Part shown: positions 5,087 to 24,339 of the stretch, piece by piece
Layout of the letters: every line of letters starts with the position of its first letter
How positions within the stretch are numbered: the first letter of the stretch is position 1
Assembly: GCF_010093445.1 (NCBI RefSeq)
Contig: NZ_PDWW01000012.1
Coordinates: 42,721 to 106,720 of the forward strand
Origin: Pseudoxanthomonas japonensis
GTDB lineage: Bacteria > Pseudomonadota > Gammaproteobacteria > Xanthomonadales > Xanthomonadaceae
Direction of reading: 5' to 3'
Length of the DNA: 64,000 nucleotides
Position numbers and translations under genes: made by a program
Notes under the pieces: generated by a model
Databases searched by the model: none
Seen by the model: only the letters and a program-made list of their open reading frames with translations
What the model was told of the DNA's origin: nothing

Positions 5087-5162
5087 GGGCCGTTAGCTCA
5101 GTCGGTAGAGCAGAAGACTTTTAATCTTTTGGTCGAAGGTTCGAATCCTTCACGGCCCACCA
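5087..5162 (+). tRNA. tRNA-Lys (anticodon UUU)
   Basis: Complete 76-nt cloverleaf with an encoded CCA. Acceptor stem 5087-5093 pairs with 5152-5158. D stem 5096-5099/5108-5111. Anticodon stem 5113-5117/5125-5129 with loop CTTTTAA, anticodon TTT at 5120-5122. Variable loop 5130-5134. T stem 5135-5139/5147-5151 with loop TTCGAAT. Discriminator A5159 is followed by CCA. A likely -10 box TAGAAT lies at 5048-5053 with no clear -35. The position directly after queC matches the tRNA-Lys site of pseudomonads, which is a known integration site for mobile islands; here no island is present. Confidence 0.98.
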
Positions 5163-8516: not shown

Positions 8517-10697
8517 ATGCCGCATCAGCGAAGGATCGAAGGCCTGATCGCCGGGATGACGCTGGAGGAGAAGATCGGCCAGCTCGGCGCCTTCGCCGAT
8601 GCGCTGCGGCCGTTCGCCTTCGAGGTCAATCCGGAGACCTTCGCGCGCGATGCCGAGCAGGTACGCGAGCAGATACGCAACGGCCGTGTCGGTGCGCTGT
8701 TCAACGGCGTGGGCGCGGCGGAAGGCCGCGAGGCACAACGCATCGCGGTGGAGGAGAGCCGGCTCGGCATTCCGCTGCTGCTGGGCGCCGATGTCATCCA
8801 CGGCATGCGCACGGTATTCCCGATCCCGCTGGGCGAAGCGGCCAGCTTCGAACCCTACCTCGCCGAACGCACCGCGCGCGCTACGGCCAAGGAAGCCACC
8901 GCCGCGGGCATCCACTGGACCTTCGCGCCGATGGTCGATGTCGCACGCGACCAGCGCTGGGGCCGCGTGGCGGAAACCTCGGGCGAGGACGTGTACCTGT
9001 CCTGCGAGTTCGCCACCGCCCGCGTGCGCGGCTTCCAGGGCGATGATCTGACCGCTCCCGATTCGCTGCTGACCACGCCGAAGCACTTCGCCGCCTATGG
9101 CGCGATCTCGGCGGGCCTGGACTACAACTTCGTCGACATGGCGCCGCAGACGCTGCGCGACGTGCACCTGCCGCCGTTCAAGGCCGCGATCGACGCCGGC
9201 GCGCTGACGCTGATGAGTTCTTTCAACGACATCAACGGCGTGCCGGCCTCGGCCAACCGCGAACTGCTGACCGACATCCTGCGCGGCGAGTGGAAGTTCG
9301 AGGGTTTCGTCGTTTCCGACTACACCTCCGACCTCGAACTGATCGCGCACGGCTACGCCAGCGACGAGGCCGACGCGGCACAGAAGGCGCTGTCGGCCGG
9401 TCTGGACATGAGCCTGCAGAGCGGCATCTACGCCGGCCACGTCGCCACGCTGGTGGCCGAAGGTCGGCTGAGCATGGACGAGGTCGATGAGGCCGTGCGC
9501 CGCGTGCTGCACGTGAAGGCCGCCGTCGGCCTGTTCGACGATCCCTACCGCTGCCTCGATGCCGAGCGCGAAGCCGACCAGTCGCACATCGCCGCGCACG
9601 ACGCGCTGGCGCGCGACTGCGCGCGCCGCTCGATCGTGCTGCTGAAGAACGACGGCGACCTGCTGCCGCTGAAGAAGACCGGCCAGCGCATTGCGCTGAT
9701 CGGACCGTTCGCGCAGGACACCGCCAACCTCGGTGGGTGCTGGAACATCTTCGGCGACGCCTCGCGCATGGTGGACGTGGAAACCGGCGTGCGCGCCGCG
9801 CTGGACGATCCGTCCGCGCTGGTCGTGGTGCCGGGCAGTGGCATCGAAGACGCGCTCGACGGCGGCCTCGACGCCGCGGTCGCCGCCGCGCGCGATGCCG
9901 ACGTCGTGCTGCTGGCCGTGGGCGAGCCGCACGAGTTCTCCGGCGAAGCGCAGTCGCGCACGCAGATCGTGCTGCCCGCCGCGCAGCAGGCGCTGGCCGA
10001 GGCGGTCGCCGCCACCGGCACGCAGCTAGTCATAGTGCTGCGCAATGGGCGCGCGCTGGCGCTGGAGGGCGCGGTGCGCGATGCGCAGGCGATCCTGGTG
10101 GGCTGGTTCCTCGGTACGCAGACCGGTCCGGCCATCGCCGACGTCGTGTTCGGCGACTACAGCCCGTCCGCGCGCCTGCCGGTGAGTTTCCCGCAGGACG
10201 CCGGCCAGCAGCCGTACTTCTACAACCACCCCGCCACCGGTCGGCCCAACGTGCCTGGCACGCCGCGCTTCTTCCAGACGCGCTGGCGCGAAGTTACCCA
10301 CGCCGCGCTGTATCCGTTCGGCCATGGCCTCTCGTACACCCGCTTCGACTACGGCGTGCCGCAGCTCGATACGCAGACGCTGGGCTGGGATGACACGCTG
10401 ACCATCCGCACGCGCATCGCCAATAGCGGTACCCGCGACGGTGAAGAAGTCGTTCAGCTGTACCTGCGCGACCGCACCGCCAGCCGCGTGCGGCCGGTGC
10501 GCGAGCTGAAGCGCTTCCGCAAGATCGCGCTGGCTGCGGGCGAGTCGCAGGACGTCGAATTCACGCTGACGCGCGCTGATCTGGAGTTCCATGGCGTCGA
10601 CAATCGCCCTGTCGCCGAGCCCGGCCTGTTCGACCTGTGGGTCGCGCCGTCCAGCGCGGTCGGCGAAGCGGTGCCGTTCGAACTGCTGGCGCCCTGA
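8517..10697 (+). CDS. bglX: Glycoside hydrolase family 3 beta-glucosidase
   Basis: GH3 enzyme releasing terminal beta-linked glucose, or possibly xylose, from oligosaccharides. It is 726 aa. Residues ~5-320 form the N-terminal barrel with the nucleophile D268 in FEGFVVSDYTSD. KHFAAYG (~190) and the ILRGEWKFEGF segment are family hallmarks. The second alpha/beta sandwich domain starts near SIVLLKNDGDLLPLKK, and a fibronectin-III-like domain ends the protein. Unlike the E. coli BglX precursor it starts directly at MPHQRRIEGLIAGM with no signal peptide, so it is predicted to be cytoplasmic, consistent with a sugar permease 5 bp downstream. The start is well supported by GGGAGG at 8502-8507. Exact substrate not decidable from sequence. 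Confidence 0.93.
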   Translation: MPHQRRIEGLIAGMTLEEKIGQLGAFADALRPFAFEVNPETFARDAEQVREQIRNGRVGALFNGVGAAEGREAQRIAVEESRLGIPLLLGADVIHGMRTVFPIPLGEAASFEPYLAERTARATAKEATAAGIHWTFAPMVDVARDQRWGRVAETSGEDVYLSCEFATARVRGFQGDDLTAPDSLLTTPKHFAAYGAISAGLDYNFVDMAPQTLRDVHLPPFKAAIDAGALTLMSSFNDINGVPASANRELLTDILRGEWKFEGFVVSDYTSDLELIAHGYASDEADAAQKALSAGLDMSLQSGIYAGHVATLVAEGRLSMDEVDEAVRRVLHVKAAVGLFDDPYRCLDAEREADQSHIAAHDALARDCARRSIVLLKNDGDLLPLKKTGQRIALIGPFAQDTANLGGCWNIFGDASRMVDVETGVRAALDDPSALVVVPGSGIEDALDGGLDAAVAAARDADVVLLAVGEPHEFSGEAQSRTQIVLPAAQQALAEAVAATGTQLVIVLRNGRALALEGAVRDAQAILVGWFLGTQTGPAIADVVFGDYSPSARLPVSFPQDAGQQPYFYNHPATGRPNVPGTPRFFQTRWREVTHAALYPFGHGLSYTRFDYGVPQLDTQTLGWDDTLTIRTRIANSGTRDGEEVVQLYLRDRTASRVRPVRELKRFRKIALAAGESQDVEFTLTRADLEFHGVDNRPVAEPGLFDLWVAPSSAVGEAVPFELLAP

Positions 10698-14212: not shown

Positions 14213-14328
14213 GGGTGCAAGGATAGCGCGATGACGCGTGTCGGCCTGCTTGGTGGACACCGGGGGCTATCGGAAATCCCTCTGGCTAGAGGTAGGAGTT
14301 CATCCTGGTGCGAGCGTAGCGGCTGAAG

Positions 14329-14361
14329 CCCCTCTCCCCGCGGGAGAGGGGTTGGGGTGAG
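14329..14361. repeat. Hairpin repeat of the CCCCTCTCCC...GGGAGAGGGG type
   Basis: A 10-bp perfect stem (14329-14338 with 14342-14351) with a CGC loop is followed by TTGGGGTGAG. This form of dispersed intergenic repeat is familiar from xanthomonads and other proteobacteria; that is family knowledge, not tested here. It lies about 117 bp upstream of the recQ start and could form a hairpin in transcripts from either strand. Confidence 0.75.
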
Positions 14362-14486
14362 GGGCAACGGAGTCCGTGTCTTCGTCTCGAGTTGGTAGTG
14401 GCCACATCCGCGATGGGCTCTGCTCTTGATGGCCTGCCGGGAGGCACTTCCCATTTCTTAAATATGGCGCCGCTGACCGCGGAGGC

Positions 14487-14692
14487 CCTACTTTTCTTTG
14501 CTTGTGCAAAGAAAAGTAGGCAAAAGAAACACACCCCGGCGGTCCGCCCGCCGCTGTGCGGCGGGTTCGCAGTCCCGGCGGGAATTTTCGTACGGGGCAT
14601 CCTGCCCCGGCCGAAAACGGCGCACATCCCTGTGCGCCGCCCTGCGGGTTTTACCCGTCGTGACTGCCGGACCTCAGGGGGCCCAAGAGCCA
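14487..14692 (+). repeat. Multi-hairpin intergenic element, copy A
   Basis: Ordered parts: a 14-bp perfect stem with loop CTTGTG (14487-14520); conserved AAAGAAACACACCCC (14523-14537); a G+C hairpin with 8-bp stem and TGT loop (14547-14565); GGGAATTTT (14580-14588) opening a composite hairpin TTTTCG...CGAAAA around CGGGGCA/TGCCCCG; a 9-bp stem with TCCC loop (14618-14639); CCCTGCGGGTTTTACCC (14640-14656); and a CCTCAGGGGG segment. The same parts recur in the same order and almost the same spacing in copy B on the other strand. Could be a structured RNA or a non-autonomous mobile element. Confidence 0.85.
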
Positions 14693-14740
14693 CGCCTGAT
14701 ACATCCGAGGCTGCAGCTTTGCTTTTGCTTGCCTTCGGGT

Positions 14741-14923
14741 CCCCATGAGGCACGGCGAGTGGGCTGGGTACAACCCGAAGGGCGCCGTCATGGATGACGG
14801 CGTTTCCGTATGGCGCATGGATGTGCCTTACGGAAATTCCCGGACCGCTCGCGGACCCTGCGCGCAGCGCAGGGCGTGCCGCCTGGGGTGTGTTTCTTTG
14901 ATTCTTTCTTTGCACAAGCAAAG
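14741..14923 (-). repeat. Multi-hairpin intergenic element, copy B (inverted)
   Basis: Read on the minus strand from 14923 it repeats copy A. CTTTGCTTGTGCAAAG (14908-14923); AAAGAAACACACCCC (14885-14899); a hairpin with 8-bp stem and TGC loop (14856-14874) whose stem sequence differs from copy A; GGGAATTTCCGTA opening a hairpin closed by TACGGAAA; a 9-bp stem with CC loop (14782-14801); CCCTTCGGGTTGTACCC (14766-14782); and CCTCATGGGG. Exactly 102 nt separate CACACCCC from CCCT in both copies. Stems are kept while their sequences differ. Confidence 0.85.
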
Positions 14924-15136
14924 AAGTGCTCTTCAACAGCCGGATGGCTGGTCAAGAATGCCCCCCGCGGCGAGCGGCACCATGCCTCCATAGAGGCGAT
15001 CCATCCGCACGTCCACAAACAAAAAGCGCCCGCTTTCCTTTCACAAGCAAAGAAGCGCTCATCAACAGCCGAATGGCTGGTCAAGCAAGGCCCCGCGGCG
15101 AGATCCATCCGCACGTCCAGAAACGAAAACGCCCGG
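14913..15136. repeat. Imperfect tandem duplication next to dps
   Basis: CACAAGCAAAGAAG followed by GCTC, TCAACAGCCG and ATGGCTGGTCAAG occurs at 14913-14956 and again at 15042-15085 with few changes. Both copies continue with a CCCCGCGGCGAG block and ATCCATCCGCACGTCCA. Copy 1 (14913-15041, 129 bp) has extra sequence in the middle. Copy 2 (15042-15136, about 95 bp) runs into the functional dps terminator, while copy 1 ends in a decayed version of it (AAAAAGCGCCCG). This looks like duplication of the segment downstream of dps. Confidence 0.8.
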
Positions 15137-15175: not shown

Positions 15176-15730
15176 TTACTGCAACAGCGAGCGCAGCATC
15201 CACGCGTACTTCTCGTGCGTCTGCAGACGCTGCGTCAGCAGGTCCTCCGTCGGCGCATCGTCCGCATCATCCGCGATGTCCAGCACCTTGCGGGCCGTCC
15301 GGCAGACCGCCTCGTTGCCGATCACCAGCTGGCGTACCATTTCCCGCCAGTCGGCGCTGTCGGTCAGGCCCGGCTCCTCGGGGATCGAGGTCAGGCTGAC
15401 GAACTCGCGGTACGAGCCGGGTGCATTGAAGCCCAGCGCGCGGATGCGCTCGGCGATCTCGTCCAGCGCCGTCCACTGCTCCGTGTACTGCGTCTCGAAC
15501 ATCGTATGCAGCGAATTGAACATCGCGCCGGTGATGTTCCAGTGGAAGTTGTGGGTCTTCAGGTAGAGCGTGTAGCTGTCGGCCAGGAAGCGCGACAGGC
15601 CGTCGGCGATCTTCTTGCGTTCGCCGCTGCTGATCCCGATATCGATGTTGGGTGCCGACGGGGCGGCCGCGAGCGGCGCGGCCACGGAGGCGGGCTTGGT
15701 CTTGGCGGGCTTGGTCTTCGGCTTGGCCAT
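15176..15730 (-). CDS. dps: Dps, DNA-protecting ferritin-like protein
   Basis: Dodecameric iron-storage and DNA-binding protein of stationary phase and oxidative stress. It is 184 aa. The ferroxidase residues are H63, H75, D90 and E94, with the exact spacing of E. coli-type Dps (12, 15 and 4 residues); the surrounding motif is THNFHWNITGAMFNSLHTMFE. The N-terminal ~28 residues are a Lys/Pro/Ala-rich tail (MAKPKTKPAKTKPAS) suited to DNA binding. Start at the ATG giving MAKPKTK; an upstream extension of the frame is only the complement of hrpA. It is divergent from hrpA with an 88-bp gap and ends in a strong terminator. Confidence 0.96.
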   Translation of the reverse strand: MAKPKTKPAKTKPASVAAPLAAAPSAPNIDIGISSGERKKIADGLSRFLADSYTLYLKTHNFHWNITGAMFNSLHTMFETQYTEQWTALDEIAERIRALGFNAPGSYREFVSLTSIPEEPGLTDSADWREMVRQLVIGNEAVCRTARKVLDIADDADDAPTEDLLTQRLQTHEKYAWMLRSLLQ

Positions 15731-22743: not shown

Positions 22744-24339
22744 GTGACCCGCGAAGACCACCAGGGCGCCGGACGGGGCCGACGCATCGAACCGCGCATC
22801 GACTGGACGCGCGGCGCGGCGGGCGATCCCGCGGCGCCCCGCGTGGCGGCGGTCCCTGCCTGGCGCGATCGCCGGCATTGGCGCTGGGTCGCCGGTCTCG
22901 CCATCCTCTTCATCGTGCTCGTCATCGCGTTCCGCCAGCCGCTGGCAGACGTGCTGTGGCCGCAGACCCGTATCCAGTCGCTGCTCGACCAGGCGGACCA
23001 GGCGCTGCGTGCCGGCCATCTGGATGCGACCGATGGCAGCGGCGCGCGCCAGCTCTACGAAGCCGCGCAGGCGCTGGACAACGACCGCACCGAGGCTGCC
23101 GACGGCCTTGGCCGCGTCGCGCAGGCCGCGTTGCGTGCGGCGGACGTCGCGCTCGGACAGGGCCGTTTCGACGAGGCCCGCGCGCACCTCGCGCTCGCCC
23201 GCGACCTGCAGGTGCCGCGACCGCAGGCGGATGCGCTGGCGCTGCGTTTGCGCACGCGCGAAGCCGAGCATGCCGGTGTCGATGGCCTGCTCGCCGCCGC
23301 GGCGCGCGCGCAGGCGGACGAGCGCCTGTGGGGCGGCGACGACACGGCCCTGCCGCTGTACCAGCGCGTGCTGGCGCTGCAGCCGACGCGCATCGAGGCG
23401 CTGGAGGGCAGGGAAGACGCGCTGTCCGACCTGCTGCAGGAGGCCGGATCGCATCTCCGCCGCGGCGAGATCGGCGAAGCCGCCGCCAGGATCACCTCGG
23501 CGCGCACGTTCGACGCCGGCCATGTCGACCTGCCGCAGGCGGAAGCGGCGCTGGCCGCGGCCGTCGACGCGCGACGTCGCGCCGGTGCGCGCGATCTGGC
23601 GCGCGGCAGGCTGGCGTCCGCACGCGCGGCCTACGAAGCGGTCCTGTCTGCCGCGCCCGACGACGGCGGTGCGCGGCAGGGCCTGGAGCAGATCGGCATC
23701 GCACACGCGCGGCAGGCGGAGCGCGAGGCGGGCGATTTCGATTTCGTGCAGGCACGACACGAGTTGGGCCTCGCCCGCGAACTGGCGCCGCAGTCGGGTC
23801 GTCTGGCGCAGGCGGAGCAGGCCGTCGCGCGGGCACGCGAGGTACAGCAACGTCAGGGCGCGACCGCGTCCCTCGGTGCGCGTGAACGCGAGCGCCGCGT
23901 CGTCGCGCTGCTCGCGCGGATGGCGCAGGCCGAGGCGCAGGGCCAATGGCTGACGCCGCCCGGCGAAAGCGCCTACGACACCTTGCGCGCGGCGCAGGCG
24001 CTCTCGCCTGACAGCCCAGCGGTGAAGCAGGCCGCGACCCGCCTGCTGCCCGCCGTCCGCAACTGCTACGAGGAAGAACTGCGCGCCAATCGCATCCGTC
24101 GCGCGCAGGCCTGCCAGCAAGCCTGGCAGACCCTGCAGCCGCGCGATCCAGCGCTGGTGGACGCACGACGGAGGCTGGCGGAAAAATGGATCGCCGTCGG
24201 CACAGAGCGGCTCGGGGCGGGCGACTTGGCGTTCGCGACCGAGGCACGGGACCAGGCACATGCGCTCGATGCGCAGGCCGGCGGCTTCGCAGAGTTCGAG
24301 CAGCGCGTGCAATCCGCGACGACCGGTCGCAGCCCCTAG
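22744..24339 (+). CDS. Membrane-anchored TPR-like helical protein, unknown function
   Basis: 531 aa from a GTG (VTREDHQGAGRG), 17 bp after relA. A basic cytoplasmic N-terminus (~45 residues) precedes a single transmembrane helix at about 47-63 (WRWVAGLAILFIVLVIAF). The rest, predicted periplasmic, is a long all-helical Ala/Arg/Leu-rich solenoid with degenerate TPR-like units (GRFDEARAHLALARDL, LPLYQRVLALQPTRIEALEG, GRLASARAAYEAVLSAAPDD). Two cysteines sit near residues 440-460 (RNCYEE, AQACQQ). I do not recognise a specific family; a scaffold role is only a guess. Probably cotranscribed with relA. Its stop codon overlaps the convergent glycosyltransferase stop. Confidence 0.72.
   Translation: MTREDHQGAGRGRRIEPRIDWTRGAAGDPAAPRVAAVPAWRDRRHWRWVAGLAILFIVLVIAFRQPLADVLWPQTRIQSLLDQADQALRAGHLDATDGSGARQLYEAAQALDNDRTEAADGLGRVAQAALRAADVALGQGRFDEARAHLALARDLQVPRPQADALALRLRTREAEHAGVDGLLAAAARAQADERLWGGDDTALPLYQRVLALQPTRIEALEGREDALSDLLQEAGSHLRRGEIGEAAARITSARTFDAGHVDLPQAEAALAAAVDARRRAGARDLARGRLASARAAYEAVLSAAPDDGGARQGLEQIGIAHARQAEREAGDFDFVQARHELGLARELAPQSGRLAQAEQAVARAREVQQRQGATASLGARERERRVVALLARMAQAEAQGQWLTPPGESAYDTLRAAQALSPDSPAVKQAATRLLPAVRNCYEEELRANRIRRAQACQQAWQTLQPRDPALVDARRRLAEKWIAVGTERLGAGDLAFATEARDQAHALDAQAGGFAEFEQRVQSATTGRSP

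Follow-up and report, generated by a model that had tools for sequence, protein, structure and literature searches.

Inverted pairs of a structured GGA-hairpin element in Pseudoxanthomonas japonensis and related genomes: candidate decoys for CsrA/RsmA

The element pair beside recQ

The window (the whole stretch of Pseudoxanthomonas japonensis DNA that was analysed, 64,000 nt) contains two inverted elements, arm A and arm B, in the gap between a RecQ-like gene and a Dps-like gene (Table 1). A first-pass annotation, made from the sequence alone, had described two inverted multi-hairpin copies here, and all the anchors that it named were found in both arms. Its spacings also held: the distance from CACACCCC to CCCT was 102 nt in arm A and arm B alike, and that from hairpin 2 to GGGAATTT was 14 nt in both. 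Exact inverted repeats were present at 14494-14514/14905-14925 and at 14523-14537/14885-14899, and the interior (14534-14602/14819-14887) was 71% complementary. An extra closing stem, read from the sequence as GGTCC/GGACC in arm A, had been overlooked; because of this stem, the arm A domain extends to about 14684 and the arm B domain begins at about 14738.

Table 1. Coordinates of the element pair, its parts and the flanking genes in the window
Feature	Position	Strand	Remark
RecQ-like gene	12419 to about 14212	-	recognised by eye
Left outer inverted end TGGCGCCGCTGACCGCGGAGGC	14465-14486		partner GCCCCCCGCGGCGAGCGGCACC at 14960-14981
Arm A head, perfect 15-bp palindrome CCTACTTTTCTTTGC-TTGT-GCAAAGAAAAGTAGG	14487-14520	+	3' of the RNA domain on the RNA strand
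Arm A anchor CTTTGCTTGTGCAAAG	14496	+	
Arm A conserved box AAAGAAACACACCCC	14523-14537	+	GGGGTGTGTTTCTTT on the RNA strand; anchor AAAGAAACACACCCC at 14523
Arm A RNA domain	14531-14684	-	full-length match of covariance model R1, 147.4 bits; arm in model alignment A2, match expected
Arm A anchor GGGAATTT	14580	+	
Arm A hairpin P3 tip GGGGCAGGATGCCCC	14594-14608	-	hairpin 3 of the first-pass annotation; loop with GGA
Arm A hairpin P4 GCACAGGGATGTGC	14622-14635	-	hairpin 4 of the first-pass annotation; loop with GGA
Spacer between the RNA domains	14685-14737		on their 5' sides
Arm B RNA domain	14738-14891	+	full-length R1 match, 137.4 bits; arm in A2, match expected
Arm B hairpin P4 GTCATGGATGAC	14787-14798	+	loop with GGA
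Arm B hairpin P3 tip GCGCATGGATGTGC	14813-14826	+	loop with GGA
Arm B anchor GGGAATTT	from 14841	-	
Arm B conserved box	14885-14899	-	anchor AAAGAAACACACCCC from 14899
Arm B head palindrome	14905-14925	-	small hairpin interrupts outer side; anchor CTTTGCTTGTGCAAAG from 14923
Dps-like gene	15176-15730	-	recognised by eye

Several smaller features were observed around the pair. Next to the element, at 14327-14375, lies a separate short repeat, the palindrome CCCCTCTCCC-N4-GGGAGAGGGG with TTGGGGTGAGGG after it, which is also found elsewhere in the same genome. A small hairpin (about GCTCTTCAACAGCCG-GAT-GGCTGGTCAAG) adjoins the head at 14924-14958 and recurs at about 15054-15087; a second, degenerate head with the same small hairpin lies at 15033-15094. 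Comparable small hairpins interrupt heads at Xanthomonas and Stenotrophomonas loci. The sole match in the window above an Rfam gathering score was a tRNA gene at 5087-5159.

Fold, strand and GGA loops

Alignment A2 comprised 50 arms, namely arms A and B of the window and 48 arms from xanthomonad loci, taken on the strand opposite to that of the first-pass annotation and chosen by a filter that demanded two ATCC-type loops. The predicted fold has a closing stem P1, a long stem P2 that encloses P4 and P3, and a further hairpin P5. Double-sided change was found in 33 of 43 consensus pairs, and 96.3% of cells showed standard pairing; when partners were slid by 1-3 columns, pairing was only 38-50%. 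The covariation score was 0.480, versus 0.156 ± 0.007 in shuffled alignments, and every measure exceeded all shuffles (0/500 reached the A2 values). Covariance model R1 was built from the xanthomonad arms of A2 only. The 129 arms found by R1 (A4, an alignment fitted to the model) had double-sided change in 35/43 pairs, 96.8% pairing and a score of 0.454 versus 0.145. Arms A and B differ from each other at 17 of the 43 pairs, 12 of them double-sided, and the two window arms keep standard pairs at 40/43 and 41/43 positions. These findings show that the structure is conserved through compensatory change. The claim of the first-pass annotation that stems compensate between the copies was thus borne out, and its proposal of a structured RNA under selection is well supported by covariation above all shuffles in A2. 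The outcome that it had named as refuting this, uncompensated decay of the stems, was not what emerged.

Open reading frames cross the element on both strands, as would be seen for a short protein gene or its remnant. However, none of six overlapping frames gave a Pfam or NCBIfam family over the cut-off, substitutions preserve base pairs, and in our gene calls all 91 element clusters were free of genes. The protein-coding reading is extremely improbable and was rejected.

The best reading of the conserved fold is obtained on the other strand, not on the one that the first-pass annotation used. Across the 38 pairs predicted from both strands, A2 contained 44 G-U and 7 A-C cells when read on the proposed RNA strand (p 1e-7, by a statistic that ignores relatedness). 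The corresponding count in A4 was 111 versus 20, and it leans toward the model's strand. The predicted energy was lower on the proposed RNA strand in 41/50 arms. When the pairs of the opposite-strand fold alone were counted, the result was 44 G-U and 64 A-C, because three pairs unique to that fold add 57 A-C cells; we gave more weight to the shared 38 pairs since they are independent of the strand folded. An excess of G-T over A-C could also be favoured by selection on single-stranded DNA. The RNA strand is most likely not the one first proposed, although these counts leave the call short of certain. In arm A the RNA would then correspond to the minus strand and in arm B to the plus strand, so that the two domains diverge from the middle of the pair.

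On the RNA strand, the tips of P4 and P3 read CA(N)GGA(U)G. GGA was present in P4 of 48/50 and in P3 of 49/50 arms of A2, a set filtered for such loops, and in 124/129 and 125/129 arms, respectively, of A4. Because of the A2 filter, we recounted the 84 arms outside the model set: GGA was present in P4 of 80/84 and in P3 of 81/84, these arms still having been retrieved by a GGA-loop model. The stems probably carry most of the R1 score. Start-to-start spacing of the two GGA was 26-28 nt in 47/50 A2 arms, and the other three arms lacked one GGA. Both arm B loops are ATGGAT, which is the AYGGAY consensus; the arm A loops, AGGGAT and AGGAT, retain GGA but not this consensus. The arm A P4 loop ACAGGGAUGU fits the CsrA consensus. 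ACANGGANGT occurs once in the window, both strands considered, at arm A P4, which is no more than chance predicts and by itself is no proof. Among 183 head-bearing arms, a loop pattern identified at least two GGA loops in 130, one in 33 and none in 20. A third GGA loop, in P5, was found in 10/21 copies of family f12 of the order (L238, L239, L241, L243, L248 and L249), of which 9 fit CA(N)GGA(N)G strictly; elsewhere P5 contained GGA in 0/50 arms of A2 and 1/129 of A4. A copied P4 hairpin could be an alternative source of the f12 P5 GGA.

Copies, dispersal and genomic context

The P. japonensis genome gave 9 DNA matches, short palindrome matches included. It has three inverted pairs and one degenerate solo copy, and the covariance model gave 7 matches in it. 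A DNA match was obtained in 40 of 61 genomes (60 relatives and P. japonensis itself), and a deeper search of five chosen genomes gave 7, 28, 25, 60 and 34 copies. The element pair is not a product of chance. A scan of the genome collection with a 20-mer of the head found at least 119 stretches; the matches listed included many from Xanthomonas, Stenotrophomonas, Pseudoxanthomonas, Pseudomonas and Nevskiales, some from Pasteurellaceae, and some in metagenome-assembled genomes labelled Chitinivibrionales, Clostridia and Ruminococcus, where contamination is possible. A downstream box near CAAAGAAA(G)CACACCC accompanied the head in nearly all matches listed, with exceptions such as L126 and one L169 copy.

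At the gap beside recQ, arms were present at 8 of 30 loci (L063, L064, L066, L067, L070, L073, L074 and L076, the L076 arm being damaged) and absent at 22; a 5.8-bit match inside the recQ side of L082 was not counted as an arm. In this comparison the dps marker, translated out of frame, did no more than mark position. In L065, one of the relatives with an empty site, one CCCCTCTCCC-GGGAGAGGGG hairpin is left; where the site is filled, hairpins of this type flank the insert. In L073, the spacer between the paired arms is filled by a long run of the CAACAG hexamer. The outer module is inverted on both flanks in two of the three pairs of the P. japonensis genome (C72 and C74); at the window locus it is present on the left only, and L064, the counterpart of that locus, shows portions of it at either end. 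As a query, the 169-bp left flank, which includes the short palindromic repeat of 14327-14375, gave 46 matches in the P. japonensis genome, mostly over its first 50 bases and this short repeat, and the composite is therefore a mosaic of repeats. One stretch of this genome (G000:C14:49810-49946) is 80% like the left outer flank and had no arms in the DNA search. No clean target-site duplication was seen by eye, the outer flanks being repeats themselves. The mobility suggested by the first-pass annotation is thus supported as regards copy number, scatter and the filled and empty site, but not by a target duplication. Phage origin was rejected, a search of a phage collection giving no match, and inspection by eye of 12 loci in distant taxa revealed no common partner ORF beside the element. 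A 16-mer of the element gave no match in the literature searched, which excludes most subscription journals, and shorter strings occurred only in papers unrelated by title.

The head also occurs without the GGA domain. Paraburkholderia caribensis chromid L277 has two inverted heads 513 bp apart (9445-9973) that enclose a different interior again; its third head is at 23854. Neither CA(N)GGA(N)G nor an R1 match was found in the interior of this pair, the one inverted head pair seen in Paraburkholderia (within the first 50 kb of the chromid). At least 38 to 40 matching places were found in seven Paraburkholderia records. Among eleven other loci, including Nevskiales and Pasteurellaceae loci with a different interior, a strong R1 match was obtained only in L140. 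Head and GGA domain are therefore separable modules. In L140, L147, L166, L171, L137, L120 and L151, the head is joined to a different interior, where a CTCAGACA-like motif takes the place of GGA loops; L140 has both kinds.

Gene contexts were determined with a home-made codon-usage gene caller. Clusters had to have a called gene on each side, and repeated arms were left out; a tandem +++ array in L100 was among those dropped. All 91 distinct clusters were intergenic, none overlapping a called gene. The flanking genes were co-directional at 67, convergent at 17 and divergent at 7. Divergent gaps were depleted (7/91 versus 39/191 background gaps of at least 60 bp, p 0.006). By geometry, the clusters comprised 36 '-+' pairs diverging from the centre, 13 '+-' converging pairs and 42 solo arms. 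Two complete genomes of the family were inspected for close neighbours (23 of 25 and 27 of 28 matches); these formed 13 pairs, every one inverted. Relative to both neighbouring genes, the solo arms were sense in 11/42, antisense in 20/42 and mixed in 11/42 (p 0.15); lacking a sense bias, they are therefore not mere passengers of 3' UTRs. Some pairs are separated by about 5.5 kb, and a reading in which they flank rRNA genes was rejected, no 16S or 23S motif being found in 20 stretches (L043-L062).

Terminator-like matches flanked each RNA domain on its 3' side, and the whole recQ-dps gap had seven, versus 1.0 ± 1.2 in shuffled sequence. A scan of the gap for sigma-70-like promoters gave 0 sites, a result of little information given that 0.1 were expected in shuffles. 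The terminator-like matches, together with the intergenic position of all clusters and the depletion of divergent gaps, would suit a transcription-end or mRNA 3'-end stability element of BIME type that acts in cis on the flanking genes. Against such a role, the solo arms show no orientation preference, the structure goes far beyond the needs of a terminator, and the GGA loops are left unexplained; we consider a 3'-end element clearly unlikely.

A non-autonomous inverted-repeat DNA element, similar in type to MITEs or REPINs, is the strongest rival; its hairpins would serve in recognising and moving single-stranded DNA, and any RNA from it would be without a function of its own. The scattered copies, the filled and empty sites beside recQ, the head and box common to elements of other interior (the inverted Paraburkholderia pair included), the consistently inverted close neighbours and the inverted outer flanks of C72 and C74, seen on the left only at the window locus, are all in its favour. 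On the other hand, a DNA element has no need for two GGA loops to persist while the stems change, nor does it call for a third loop with GGA, as seen in f12. Both solo arms and pairs of two geometries occur, and the strand asymmetry fits RNA more simply, the A-C count of the opposite fold notwithstanding. A purely DNA-level mobile element is quite possible, if less than probable; it would be compatible with decoy function if the RNA domain were its cargo.

Known RNA classes and CsrA/RsmA binding

The first-pass annotation knew of no assigned function for such sequences; a described RNA class, TwoAYGGAY, whose members are candidate CsrA binders, had been missed. In its first listing, TwoAYGGAY was rated a probable RNA and unlikely to be cis-regulatory (PMC2864571); Gardner and Eldai later proposed that it binds CsrA (PMC4333381). 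Its Rfam family, RF01731, belongs to clan CL00106, as does RsmV. Like TwoAYGGAY, the window element has a closing stem around two adjacent GGA-loop hairpins, the second longer. Unlike it, the window element adds P5, an outer closing stem, a conserved box and a palindromic head, is present in many copies, often as inverted pairs, and has arm A loops off the consensus.

The RF01731 model left the window arms unmatched, with no row over 14400-15020 at E<=10 (gathering score 43 bits), and gave 0 matches in the whole P. japonensis genome (G000). RsmV gave a row over the window arms at a chance-level 8.9 bits, versus a gathering score of 100. RF01731 exceeded its gathering score in relatives that have the same head (L122, 55.1 and 44.7 bits; L169, 48.5 and 44.5 bits) and stayed below it in L095 (41.8 and 38.3 bits); the matches at these three loci fall in or beside palindrome-headed elements. 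No RF01731 row at E<=0.1 was obtained for loci L093, L104, L109, L116 and L154. RF01731 and R1 overlapped on the same strand at 7 of 12 loci tried (L095, L122, L169, L213, L216, L222 and L225), which come from Pseudomonas, Solimonas, Sinimarinibacterium and other genomes of the order; the R1 E-values there ranged from 2.9e-22 to 0.048, some of them weak. L217, L219, L220 and L229 gave no R1 match at E<=0.05, and L212 was matched at another place. The clearest bridge was L225, where RF01731 (36.5 bits, below the cut-off) and R1 (133.7 bits) matched one place. In searches with stricter filters of 151 genomes of the order, RF01731 was found in 14 at E<=0.001, 8 of them over the cut-off and neither of the listed Pseudoxanthomonas among them, and R1 in 30. 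The partial two-way overlap of the models points to a relation between the window arms and TwoAYGGAY RNAs in relatives.

The sponge RNAs CsrB, RsmX, RsmY, RsmZ and RsmV are encoded by one or a few dedicated genes, whereas the window elements are dispersed repeats. Both have hairpins with exposed GGA, generally paired (PMC4383904). The window element also resembles RsmU of Xanthomonas campestris, likewise a xanthomonad RNA with GGA motifs, which binds RsmA (PMC7694677). RsmU is a 117-nt RNA from the comEA 3' UTR and is described in that report as found only in Xanthomonas; it is dispensable for virulence, the hypersensitive response and swarming (PMC7694677). Replacement of all four GGA of RsmU did not abolish RsmA binding (PMC7694677), and GGA alone is therefore a weak guide. 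Identity of the element with RsmU was considered and rejected, because nine comEA-family loci (L262-L270) gave 0 R1 matches at E<=0.05. The inverted doublets recall REPIN and BIME arrangements of intergenic palindromic repeats; unlike these, the arms are about 154 nt long and branched, versus REPs of 20-40 bp (PMC3733652).

CsrA (PF02599) is encoded in 123 of the 151 genomes. Every genome with an R1 match (30) or an RF01731 match (14) is among these (41/41 in the union; hypergeometric 4.7e-5). The association is confounded by descent, because 14 of the 20 csrA-less genomes listed belong to family f9. One f9 genome, G150, has six CsrA-like matches, and it alone among the f9 genomes listed gave a TwoAYGGAY match.

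We propose that the elements are dispersed RsmA/CsrA-binding decoys, a reading that we judge to be evenly balanced between right and wrong. Their RNA, with its paired GGA loops, would likely bind RsmA/CsrA and draw it off its mRNA targets. Transcription would come from a promoter of their own or by read-through, one RsmA dimer would bind per arm, and all copies together would produce a net titration of RsmA/CsrA. In the predicted fold of the pair, a backbone forms between the arms, and P3 and P4 of each arm protrude (102 inter-arm and 74 local pairs on the plus strand, 101 and 68 on the minus strand). A transcript of either strand of an inverted pair would expose the two GGA hairpins of its sense arm only.

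A broader form of this proposal is doubtful, though possible: that xanthomonads and many other proteobacteria have genome-wide mobile RNA elements that sponge CsrA/RsmA, arranged as inverted doublets that expose a GGA pair from either strand. Copy number would set the titration and supply the RsmA antagonists that seem to be absent from the group, and a widespread palindromic head, able to exchange one RNA interior for another, would carry the elements. A BLAST search reported in 2020 found no homologue of CsrB, CsrC, RsmV, RsmW, RsmX, RsmY or RsmZ in any Xanthomonas genome sequenced (PMC7694677). If the decoy reading is true, tens of dispersed paired-GGA RNAs could fill this gap in sponge RNAs of Xanthomonas. 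The elements would also be a case of repeats that act as decoys for a global regulator, and TwoAYGGAY, whose CsrA role is so far no more than a prediction, would gain a large set of natural variants.
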